Assembly: GCF_000739695.1 (NCBI RefSeq)
Contig: NZ_BBIO01000007.1
Coordinates: forward strand, 62,001-126,000
Reading direction: 5' to 3'
Origin: Tepidicaulis marinus
GTDB taxonomy: Bacteria; Pseudomonadota; Alphaproteobacteria; Parvibaculales; Parvibaculaceae
DNA length: 64,000 nucleotides
Below, one piece after another: positions 8,829 to 11,824 of the stretch. Position numbers and translations under genes: made by a program. Numbering within the stretch: position 1 is the first letter of the stretch; every line of letters starts with the position of its first letter. Under the pieces are notes generated by a model that did no database searches, was not told where the DNA came from, and saw only the letters and a list, made by a program, of their open reading frames with translations.

Positions 8829-9173
8829 ATGAGCGGCACGCCGGAACAGGATTGGGCGGCGATCAAACGCGCCTGGGCGGAAGATAAACTCACGCCCAAG
8901 GAAATCGCGGCAGCTTATGGGCTGAGCTATCAAAAGCTCTCCGCGAGGGCCCGTGCCGAAGGCTGGCGCAAGGGGGAGAGCGGGCGCGAAGGGAACGCGG
9001 AAAAGCAGCGCCGCCGCCCGCCCCGGAGGAAGGCGCGCGTTATCTCGTCGGCCAAGGGGCGAGCGGAGAATGGGCGGGCGAGGAAGGAAAGCTCGCCTGG
9101 TTCGACGCCGGGGTCTGGCGGTTTCTTGAGCCGCAGGAAGGCTGGCGCGCCTTTGTTGCGGATGAAGGCGTGA
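8829..9173 (+). CDS. Short HTH-like open frame, probably the 5' part of a broken phage-type gene
   Basis: The first 50 residues (DWAAIKRAWAEDKLTPKEIA onward to RAEGWRKG) look like a helix-turn-helix segment of the kind found at the start of phage terminase small subunits and transposase-like proteins. After that the frame turns into arginine- and proline-rich low-complexity residues with no family character, while the -1 frame takes up a convincing DUF2793 sequence. I read this as one end of a gene broken or shifted between about 8960 and 9030. A five-G run at 8972-8976 is a plausible slip point. The ribosome site is weak. Confidence 0.4.
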   Translation: MSGTPEQDWAAIKRAWAEDKLTPKEIAAAYGLSYQKLSARARAEGWRKGESGREGNAEKQRRRPPRRKARVISSAKGRAENGRARKESSPGSTPGSGGFLSRRKAGAPLLRMKA

Positions 9174-9592
9174 GCCTTGTCTTCAGTGCGGGCGCCTGGC
9201 GGCGGGAGGCGGCGGAGCTTTTGGGGATAAGCGCAAACGGGGCGGCGTTTCAGGCGAAGGTGATCGAGGCCGATCATGTGATCGCGGCGGGCGCCTTCAA
9301 CGACACGGGGTTCGCCATTCCCGACCGCGCCGTCGTTCTCGCCGTGACGGGCCGGGTGCTCGAAACGCTGACGGGGGCCGCGAGCTGGGCGCTCGGCGTT
9401 GCCGCCGATCCGCAGCGCTATGGCAATGGCATCGGCTCTGTGGCGGACAGCACGGTGGTGGGGGTGAGCGGTGTACCGACCGCTTATTACGGCGCAACGC
9501 CTTTGAGAATAAGCGCGCAAGGGGCGGATTTCACCGGCGGGCGGCTGCGCCTTGCCATTCACTGCCTGGAAATGAGCGTCCCGCAGATGTGA
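8888..9592 (+). pseudogene. DUF2793 phage/GTA-type protein without a proper start
   Basis: From about 9005 this frame gives EEGARYLVGQGASGEWAGE, WFDAGVWRFLEPQEGWRAF, then the C-terminal half with IPDRAVVLAVTGRVLE and TAYYGATPLRISAQGADFTGG, which is characteristic of DUF2793 proteins in alphaproteobacterial phages and gene transfer agents. The frame is open from 8888, but the first standard start codon is a GTG at 9164-9172 inside the domain, so a short product from 9170 would lack the front half. The LGLP...QAQKE N-terminus usual for the family is missing. The HTH frame at 8829 reads into it by a -1 shift. Confidence 0.6.
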
Positions 9593-9608
9593 TGCAGGGT
9601 GGCAGATA

Positions 9609-9623
9609 GTTCTTGTTTTGTTC
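9609..9623 (+). promoter_or_regulatory. LexA (SOS) box of alphaproteobacterial type
   Basis: GTTC (9609-9612), seven bases, GTTC (9620-9623) is an exact match to the direct-repeat LexA site known for alphaproteobacteria. It lies 57 bases before the start of the wall hydrolase gene and covers its likely -35 region. Confidence 0.7.
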
Positions 9624-9641
9624 TTATTTGTGGAATAAATT
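9613..9641 (+). promoter_or_regulatory. Candidate promoter of the lysis cassette
   Basis: TTGTTT (9613-9618) and TAAATT (9636-9641) are separated by 17 bases in an AT-rich stretch that stands out from its GC-rich surroundings. The -35 lies inside the LexA box, a layout expected for repression by LexA. Confidence 0.4.
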
Positions 9642-9679
9642 CCTAGACAGCGAATTTCAGAACAGCAGCAGGAGGTGTC

Positions 9680-10222
9680 ATGCCGCCCCATCATCATATG
9701 GCGGGCGATCCGGACCCGCGTGATTTGCGCCATTTAAGGCTCTTTGCGGCGGCGCTGGCCTTTTGGGCCGCAGACGAGGGCGCGCAAGGCGAGGCGAGCG
9801 AGGCCAGCATCCGGGCGCTGGCGGCGCTGATCCGCAACCGGCTTTTATGGGCGCGGGCCTATAAGCGGGCCATGGGCCGGGCGCATCCGCTTTATGGGGA
9901 CGGCTCGCTTTATGCCGTGCTGGCAAGCCTTGCCGTACGGCAGCCCGAGACGGGGGAGGCGGGGCGGTTTCTCGAAATTTCCCGGGCCGCGCTTTCGGGC
10001 GCGCTGCCGGATGAGACCGGCGGGGCGACGCAGTTTCACCGCCATGAGGAGGCCCCGGCCTGGGCGGCGCGGGCGCTGCCGCGCGCGCTCATTGGCCGGC
10101 ACTGGTTCTATGTCCGCCCGGAAGAAGCGGCGGCGCTTTATCCCTTTTTGGACCCCGTTTCGGGGATGGCATTTGAGGAGAGGACCTGCGGCGGGCCGCA
10201 GGAGAAAAGGAGGCGCGAATGA
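9680..10222 (+). CDS. SleB-like cell wall hydrolase (phage endolysin type)
   Basis: A 180-residue protein with the two signatures of the SleB/Hydrolase_2 family: ADEGAQGEASEASIRALAAL with Glu33 and Glu38, then IRNRL, and near the C-terminus GGATQFHRHEEAPAWA followed by IGRHWFYV. Members cut peptidoglycan as lytic transglycosylases or related muramidases. No signal peptide is visible, so release would need a holin, and a holin-like gene overlaps its stop by four bases. AGGAGG lies directly upstream of the ATG. A LexA box controls the promoter. Probably the endolysin of a prophage or GTA remnant. Confidence 0.75.
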   Translation: MPPHHHMAGDPDPRDLRHLRLFAAALAFWAADEGAQGEASEASIRALAALIRNRLLWARAYKRAMGRAHPLYGDGSLYAVLASLAVRQPETGEAGRFLEISRAALSGALPDETGGATQFHRHEEAPAWAARALPRALIGRHWFYVRPEEAAALYPFLDPVSGMAFEERTCGGPQEKRRRE

Positions 10223-10437
10223 ACGATCTGCTCGCCGGTATTCCGGCAATTCTGGCAAGTGTGCCCGACTGGCTCTCGGCGCTCTTGTCGCTGGTGGGGG
10301 CGGCCTCGGCCGTAACCGCGCTCACCCCGACGCCGAAAGACGATAAATGGATCGGCAAAACCTACCGGATCCTGGAGATTCTGGCTCTGAATATCGGCTA
10401 TGCGCGGCCGGGCCAGGCGGGGCCCTGGGAAAAGTAG
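10219..10437 (+). CDS. Small holin-like membrane protein
   Basis: It is a 72-residue protein. A hydrophobic stretch (about residues 8-35) leads into LTPTPKDDKWIGKTYRILEI, a tail seen in small proteins that accompany phage endolysins. Its ATG overlaps the stop of the wall hydrolase gene. Size, membrane segment and position suggest a holin or accessory lysis protein; the family is not proven. The 231 bases after it hold an inverted repeat at 10618-10647 and no gene. Confidence 0.55.
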   Translation: MNDLLAGIPAILASVPDWLSALLSLVGAASAVTALTPTPKDDKWIGKTYRILEILALNIGYARPGQAGPWEK

Positions 10438-10617
10438 TTGGGGAAAAGTAGCCGGGGAAGAAATAACGGGCGGGAAGAAGGTTGATCCGGGCGCCCGCCC
10501 TGGAGACTTCCGGTCAATAGTGTGCCGGGCACAGTATTTTAAGTTACTTTTTTATTGTTCCGTTCAGATTTGCTTAAAACGTCAATGTTAGTCTGTTTCA
10601 TGGTGTCCGGTATCTAT

Positions 10618-10668: not shown

Positions 10669-10860
10669 ATGACGCAGCGAATGATTTTCTTTCCGCAACG
10701 CCGGCGCATCAATGTGAAAGCGCTTGCCGTGTCGCTGTTTCTGCTTACCTTGAGTGCGGCCTCCTTCGTCGCGGGTTTGCAGGTCGGGGTCGAATATTCG
10801 GCTTCGCTGAGCGGCAACGTTCCGTTCCTGTCCGTTCAAACGGCATCGGCGGACCTTTAA
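10669..10860 (+). CDS. Unknown small single-span membrane protein
   Basis: A 63-residue protein: a basic N-terminus (residues 1-17), one hydrophobic segment (about 18-40) and a short polar tail. I do not recognise a family. The ATG at 10669 has GGAGAGG seven bases upstream; a longer frame from 10555 would run through the inverted repeat and is unlikely. It stands alone between the lysis cassette and the SDR gene. Confidence 0.5.
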   Translation: MTQRMIFFPQRRRINVKALAVSLFLLTLSAASFVAGLQVGVEYSASLSGNVPFLSVQTASADL

Positions 10861-11020: not shown

Positions 11021-11824
11021 ATGGATTTGCAGCTAAGCGGCAAGCGGGTTTTGATCAGCGGCGCAGAGCGCGGTACGGGCGCGGTGATTGCCGCAACGCT
11101 GGCGCGCGAAGGCGCGGCGGTGGCGCTGCACGGCTTCTCCCGCGAAAAGGCGGAAGGGGAAGCGGCGCGGCTGAGGGAAGAAGCGCTGACCGCCCATGGC
11201 GTGAGCGGCGATCTTTTGACCGATGAAGGCGCGCGTCAGGCTTACGATGAAGCCGTGGCGGTGCTGGGCGGTCTCGATATTCTCATCAACAATTACGGTA
11301 TTGCCGACGGCAAGAAATGGGCAAGCGCCGAAACGAGTGATTGGGAAACCTCCTACAATCACAACGTCTTGACGGCGCAGCGCCTCTCCCGCCTTGCCAT
11401 GGGCCCTATGAAAGAGCTTGGCTGGGGCCGTATTCTCAATCTCGGCACGATCGGCTCCACTCAGCCTGCTGCCGAGCGCCCGCATTATTACGCGGCAAAG
11501 GGCGCGATGGCGGCGATGACGGTTTCCCTTGCCAAGGAACTTGGCGGGACCGGCGTGACGGTCAATCTGCTCAGCCCTGGTCTTATCCGCACGGCGGAAG
11601 TGGAAGAATGGATCGCGCGCCTTGCCGCCAAAAGAGGCTGGGGCGAGAGCTGGGAGGAACGCGAGCGCGAGGCGGTGAAACTTTTCGGCGGGAATCTTAC
11701 CGGGCGAATCGCAACGCGCGAGGAAGTGGCGGATGCCGCTGCGTTTTTATGCTCACCGCGCGCAGGCGCCATCAACGCGGTCAATCTGCGCATCGATGGG
11801 GGCAGCGTCGCGCTGGTGACATGA
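11021..11824 (+). CDS. Short-chain dehydrogenase/reductase
   Basis: A 267-residue classical SDR. The nucleotide-binding motif is SGAERGTG (13-20), the structural motif is NNYG (90-93) rather than NNAG, and the active-site pair is Tyr156 and Lys160 in HYYAAKGA. The position of the catalytic serine, 13 residues before the tyrosine, is Thr143. The C-terminus RIDGGS is usual. It precedes the acyl-CoA dehydrogenase pair in the same direction with a gap of 125 bases, so a role in oxidation of a hydroxy-acyl or alcohol intermediate is possible. Substrate unknown. Confidence 0.85.
   Translation: MDLQLSGKRVLISGAERGTGAVIAATLAREGAAVALHGFSREKAEGEAARLREEALTAHGVSGDLLTDEGARQAYDEAVAVLGGLDILINNYGIADGKKWASAETSDWETSYNHNVLTAQRLSRLAMGPMKELGWGRILNLGTIGSTQPAAERPHYYAAKGAMAAMTVSLAKELGGTGVTVNLLSPGLIRTAEVEEWIARLAAKRGWGESWEEREREAVKLFGGNLTGRIATREEVADAAAFLCSPRAGAINAVNLRIDGGSVALVT

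Follow-up and report, generated by a model that had tools for sequence, protein, structure and literature searches.

The window analysed here (64,000 nucleotides of Tepidicaulis marinus, NZ_BBIO01000007.1, positions 62,001 to 126,000) carries a cell wall hydrolase gene and a coupled small membrane protein gene behind a LexA-like box, and the question that this locus raises is where such a lysis cassette comes from and whether DNA damage could switch it on. The initial annotation had described a box GTTC-N7-GTTC at 9609-9623, then AGGAGG, a SleB-like hydrolase and a coupled holin-like gene, an arrangement that we confirmed in the sequence and its ORFs. In our reading, which we hold with good confidence, the cassette is the endolysin and holin release module of an RcGTA-type gene transfer agent (GTA, a domesticated phage that carries host DNA between cells), with its own promoter under a predicted SOS operator. 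The locus is composed of the following features, where L049 denotes the corresponding region of a congener:

8829 to 9004, forward strand: what is left of the 5' part of the first GTA gene (small terminase-like HTH), 95% DNA identity to L049:2942-3308; PHROG terminase small subunit, E 3e-5
9005 to 9018, no strand: deletion joint with short microhomology, to which both congener flanks align (L049:3295-3308 and L049:17740-17753)
9019 to 9592, forward strand: 3' remnant of the GTA DUF2793 tail-fibre gene, N-terminal part gone; PF10983, E 1.3e-16; 93% DNA identity to L049:17740-18296
9609 to 9623, forward strand: LexA box GTTC-N7-GTTC, GTTCTTGTTTTGTTC, kept in the congener and in Parvibaculum
9632 to 9643, no strand: conserved dyad GGAATAAATTCC, directly downstream of the LexA box; a similar element, AGGA..TCCT, recurs at the lysis promoters in three genera and also at a single gafYZ promoter
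9670 to 9675, forward strand: ribosome-binding site AGGAGG, read from the sequence
9680 to 10222, forward strand: SleB-like cell wall hydrolase (endolysin) with its ATG at 9680, 180 aa, no evident signal peptide (Pfam, profile, structure model, hydropathy)
10219 to 10437, forward strand: holin-like small membrane protein of 72 aa with one hydrophobic segment; phrog_9685 (function unknown); same position in most Parvibaculum GTAs
10521 to 10533, forward strand: possible terminator hairpin, not above chance
10669 to 10860, forward strand: small single-TM gene, 63 aa; protein identical in the congener, similar ORF after the lysis gene of a third genus
11021 to 11824, forward strand: SDR dehydrogenase (adh_short_C2), a host gene and the right border of the GTA site, family-wide at the same position

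The hydrolase scores 22.1 bits against Pfam Hydrolase_2, below the cut-off of 27, and DUF7742 is above its cut-off. Its SleB catalytic fold and motif were recognised by profile matches to the SleB proteins of B. cereus (7.5e-7) and B. anthracis (2.3e-6; 4f55, 4fet) and by an AlphaFold2 model (pLDDT 80) in which SleB was the only confident structural match (probability 1.0, Foldseek E about 0.01). PHROG placed it with endolysins. The start of the 72-aa ORF overlaps the hydrolase stop (ATGA), an arrangement that points to translational coupling, and the pairing of the two genes is conserved. The small membrane protein gave no Pfam match and no match to a known holin family, only PHROG 9685; from its size, its one hydrophobic segment and its position we infer a putative holin, and the cassette as a whole is predicted to be lytic.

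The sequence directly upstream of the cassette reveals its origin. The initial annotation had seen no tail genes nearby, which is wrong, since the DUF2793 tail-fibre remnant and the small-terminase-like remnant lie immediately ahead of the lysis promoter. These remnants are in different reading frames, and the ORF that begins at 8829 continues out of frame beyond the joint. In Rhodobiaceae bacterium UBA4490 (G001), a congener that keeps a whole GTA at the same site, the two sequences are separated by 14.4 kb that contain a complete RcGTA-type cluster, in the order terminase, protease, capsid, connector, NlpC-like protein, GTA_TIM/Rcc01698_C protein and DUF2793, followed by the box, the hydrolase, the membrane protein and the SDR gene. 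Pfam identifies this cluster as RcGTA-type (PF13547 GTA_TIM, 1.4e-149; PF23666 Rcc01698_C; Phage_capsid; Terminase_6N). About 14.4 kb of the GTA cluster, from the small-terminase gene to the middle of DUF2793, have thus been deleted in the window, where the GTA locus holds no terminase, capsid or tail genes beyond its two fused end remnants. Searches of the window's own genome (99.98% complete), which was read in stretches around matches, found neither GTA capsid nor terminase in it. The terminase search had positive controls: it detected the gene in 46 of the 61 genomes searched and in all 28 other family members that are at least 90% complete, so the window's genome stands alone among 29 such genomes in having none. 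On this sequence comparison, the window is a GTA deletion scar with the release cassette intact.

The same gene order was found in more than 20 family genomes, and most of those that bear the hydrolase show DUF2793 (or the TIM protein), hydrolase, small membrane protein and SDR in succession; the small membrane protein is in this series in the window's genus and in most of Parvibaculum. Judged by this synteny, the hydrolase and membrane protein genes are the 3' lysis cassette of an RcGTA-type GTA and not of a prophage. An ordinary SOS-induced prophage, unrelated to the host GTA, could have left lysis genes and a box behind on decaying, and the PHROG endolysin match and the phage-like match of the small membrane protein, whose relative in Azospirillum phage Cd is encoded shortly downstream of a lysozyme gene, fit such an origin. 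However, this is contradicted by the cluster with GTA_TIM, DUF2793 and lysis genes in order beside the SDR gene in the congener and across the family; moreover, no phage record matched the hydrolase, and the IMG/VR relatives that have the upstream box are fragments of such GTA clusters, one of them identical to that of P. lavamentivorans DS-1. We therefore regard a prophage origin as highly improbable. The initial annotation had left the choice between a prophage and a GTA; of its alternatives, a decayed GTA whose last working part survives is the right one, given the GTA at the same site in the congener, the joint and the loss of capsid and terminase.

Several further observations concern these clusters. 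IMG/VR lists the GTA cluster of P. lavamentivorans DS-1 as a virus (L144, IMGVR_UViG_640753040_000001), and the listed sequence does not differ from the chromosome over the 3,760 bp compared. Four genomes, G022 (L097), G002 (L099), G019 (L096) and G004 (L100), have a GTA with no SleB-type gene behind it; two of them keep the holin-like gene only, and release must differ in these four because the SleB-type gene is missing. In the congener, a 447-aa ORF with no Pfam match (L049:18390-19733) lies between DUF2793 and the lysis promoter, and inserts near this promoter also occur in G031 and G032, so the place looks like an insertion hotspot.

The deletion looks recent when the window is compared with its congener. 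The hydrolase has a Ka/Ks of 0.21 and the membrane protein one of 0.16, and the dead DUF2793 remnant gives 0.20. Both cassette ORFs, the ribosome-binding site and the box are intact, as are gafYZ and the XRE gene described below, and these facts together with the low ratios could suggest that selection keeps the orphan cassette for suicide or public-goods lysis in the SOS response (altruistic lysis, release of eDNA or vesicles), with no GTA particles involved. But because the dead remnant shows the same ratio and the deletion looks recent, the survival of the cassette gives no evidence of selection; the deletion is too recent to tell. In addition, lexA is truncated in this genome (see below) and the orphan state was found in one genome only. 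We consider a selected module unlikely.

Whether the lysis promoter is a LexA target was judged by pattern and by conservation. The bare pattern GTTC-N7-GTTC occurs twice in the window against 1.5 expected, which is not significant, and 63 times in the genome, fewer than its backward control (113), so that genome-wide counting of the bare pattern is uninformative. AT-rich spacers are rarer: at least six of the seven spacer positions are A or T in 7 of the 63 genomic boxes. The 15-mer of the window's box is present once more in the genome, ahead of a radical-SAM gene, and the AT-rich boxes include sites at imuA, uvrA/ssb, lexA and this radical-SAM gene; for this reason the lysis box looks like the genome's own SOS operators. 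The initial annotation also had the box covering a likely -35, which a sigma-70 scan of the window's lysis promoter did not bear out, as it returned no sigma-70-like pair, although the Parvibaculum box follows TTGACA.

The initial annotation had named loss of the box in close relatives that keep the two genes as its own refutation; instead, the box is conserved with them in both congeners and in 16 of 17 Parvibaculum genomes. In UBA4490 the box reads GTTCTTGCTTTGTTC and lies at the same distance as in the window; the alignable sequence of the two congeners starts about at this box, because each has unrelated DNA upstream. Fifteen of the 17 Parvibaculum genomes have the box within 420 bp upstream, a sixteenth (G032) has it ahead of a 2.2-kb insert, and it is missing in one. 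It stands directly 3' of TTGACA, with spacers that differ between genomes, and is inverted in G015. Across the two genera, 17 of 19 SleB-bearing genomes have a box at most 420 bp upstream against about 0.01 expected per stretch of this length, a contrast whose binomial values overstate significance since the genomes share ancestry and are not independent; elsewhere in the fetched regions the background is one box per 38.8 kb. The window's promoter thus has the GTTC-N7-GTTC element, conserved in relatives, that is expected of the alphaproteobacterial LexA regulon, and it is conservation, not the bare pattern, that lifts the predicted operator above chance.

In the third genus compared, none of the six genomes with a GTA and a lysis gene has a LexA box at that gene, and none of seven has one at gafYZ. 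Its lexA bears the same box as that of the window's genome, so the absence of boxes at its GTA genes is not due to an altered LexA specificity. A GAACCTGACCCGAAC match inside the small-terminase coding stretch of three genomes of this genus was taken as chance.

Directly after the box, the dyad at 9632-9643 is a likely second operator. It follows the box in two genera and occurs without it in the third genus and in one box-less gafYZ promoter, and because of this occurrence without the box a second regulator is likely to act there. Its form, AGGAAT..ATTCCT beside the lysis box, replaces the LexA box at the gafYZ promoter of L089.

A second candidate LexA control point was found at the GTA activators. 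At 24 kb to the left of the cassette, beyond the window, an XRE repressor-like gene faces tandem Bac_DnaA_C (7.7e-17) and DUF6456 (2.9e-51) genes. This layout is that of gafYZ, the direct GTA activators (PMC9632790, PMC11150451, PMC9638019), and an arrangement of this type has been described for Hyphomicrobiales (PMC9638019); the genome accordingly retains a direct activator of the gafA or gafYZ kind. Ahead of gafY there are two LexA boxes in each of the two congeners; in Parvibaculum, 6 of 10 genomes have one there and the other four none. In P. lavamentivorans DS-1 (G011), there are just six boxes of the form GTTCNNNNTTNGTTC, and two of them are the lysis and gafYZ sites. No LexA box was found at the GTA structural operon in the window's genus or in Parvibaculum. 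Additionally, a strongly conserved palindrome-like stretch, TTATCCCC...TACGNAANANGTAA, lies between the XRE gene and gafY in the window's genus and Parvibaculum (L034:2843-3075 and relatives) and is probably the operator of a RogA-like repressor.

The boxes could still be chance or inherited sequence with no LexA function at these promoters. The pattern is indeed common (63 per genome), the genomes are related and the boxes are predicted from sequence. Against this, the half-sites are kept while the spacer varies, although this invariance is partly due to the choice of exact matches; the box keeps its place after TTGACA; it is retained when inverted in G015 and when separated by the insert in G032; and boxes recur at gafYZ. 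Taken together, these points make non-functional boxes improbable, and predicted SOS operators remain our preferred reading.

The lexA gene of this genome (G000:C43:46186-46695; L040:3060-3569, L137) complicates the picture. It has a premature in-frame TGA at codon 171 of 232, which follows the GDSM serine and precedes the protein's last quarter, while its own LexA box is intact; lexA is full length in three relatives (G001, G010, G011). The genome thus appears to have no intact LexA repressor, with the reservation that a single-base sequencing error could produce this stop, and regulated induction in the window's genome is doubtful because of it. If the stop is real, this genome no longer has SOS control, and the deletion of the GTA may be linked to that; if it is a sequencing error, the cassette would be a damage-inducible orphan. 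Accordingly, the cassette could now be inert or constitutively on, the nonsense mutation having ended SOS control and the GTA deletion having been tolerated or selected in consequence. The TGA in a gene that is intact in three relatives speaks for this, as does the fact that this is the only GTA loss among the family genomes at least 90% complete. However, the change is a single base, free expression of holin and endolysin should be damaging to a cell that has no second lock, and the lexA and GTA events could have occurred in either order. We give this alternative some weight, as a lesser possibility beside the GTA release module under a predicted SOS operator.

A candidate second full-length LexA at C46 (L141) was rejected, as the match is a 149-aa protein of a Mu-like region. 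This prophage region, at about 98.7 kb of G000:C46, has a GemA/DUF1018-like gene (identified by eye), and its 149-aa protein bears a LexA-type DNA-binding domain. At G000:C24:3475 (L031:3001-3342), a T-rich LexA box, GTTCCTGTTTTGTTC, lies about 10 bp before the gene of a 106-aa cysteine-containing protein of unknown function.

The ancestral state, still present in UBA4490 and Parvibaculum, would be one with LexA as the repressor of the lysis genes and, in most cases, of gafYZ too. DNA damage would lead to RecA-triggered LexA cleavage and free both, GafYZ would turn on the structural operon so that particles are produced, and the holin would give the hydrolase access to the wall, so that the particles are released. 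In the window's genome the orphan cassette, if transcribed, could lyse cells but would release no particles. We lean towards the view that in Parvibaculum and the window's genus damage itself triggers the making and release of GTA through gafYZ and the lysis genes, that particles with host DNA could serve as repair templates for neighbours, and that the window's lineage lost the particle and kept the trigger and the lysis genes. Counted against this general reading are the lexA stop, the structural operon with no LexA box, the four gafYZ promoters and one lysis promoter of Parvibaculum that are box-less, and the role of LexA in R. capsulatus, where it is needed for GTA production and so acts in the opposite direction (PMC9638019, PMC6363796).

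Beyond Rhodobacter and Caulobacter, little is known of the signals that set off GTA production. If the activator and the lysis genes are both under direct LexA control, the GTA trigger in Parvibaculum would be DNA damage, and the proposed role of GTA in DNA repair (PMC9632790) could be put to a direct test in P. lavamentivorans DS-1, a type strain in culture. We found no description of direct LexA boxes at GTA lysis genes and gafYZ in the open-licence literature searched.

Lastly, these features can be compared with known systems. The hydrolase shares with the catalytic domain of SleB (B. cereus, B. anthracis) the fold and the C-terminal DPTxGATxFH...PxWA region; unlike SleB, it has no evident signal peptide or binding domain, stays below the Pfam cut-off when taken alone and is divergent in its N-terminal half. 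RcGTA of R. capsulatus (lysis genes rcc00555/rcc00556) resembles the family's GTA in its homologous structural cluster (GTA_TIM, Rcc01698_C, capsid, terminase), in release by endolysin and holin and in a direct activator of the GafA kind. There, GafA, which binds the lysis promoter, is described as switching on lysis jointly with CtrA, and LexA as acting indirectly through cckA and as necessary for production (PMC6363796, PMC9638019). Here, in contrast, a LexA box is found within the lysis promoter and frequently at gafYZ too, which implies repression, and the lysis genes are adjacent to the structural cluster. In Dinoroseobacter shibae, a LexA site was predicted in silico near the GTA cluster (Dshi_2167/2168; PMC6473078); the portion of that report consulted does not mention the lysis pair Dshi_1756/1757 or gafA as LexA targets and makes no cross-species comparison. 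The Caulobacter crescentus GTA (rogA, gafYZ, cdxB, lypABC) also has separate gafY and gafZ genes, and one repressor, CdxB, couples activation and lysis, as LexA would by analogy here. Lysis in Caulobacter involves no holin or endolysin and is brought about by LypABC under CdxB (PMC9632790, PMC13236601); RogA is LexA-like in shape, although LexA itself has not been reported at the Caulobacter promoters. Because boxes stand at both the lysis genes and gafYZ in part of the family, GTA activation and release there look directly SOS-repressed, unlike in R. capsulatus or Caulobacter. This suggests that the control of GTA release has been rewired repeatedly, with CtrA and GafA in Rhodobacter, CdxB with LypABC in Caulobacter and, as predicted here, LexA in these relatives of Tepidicaulis.
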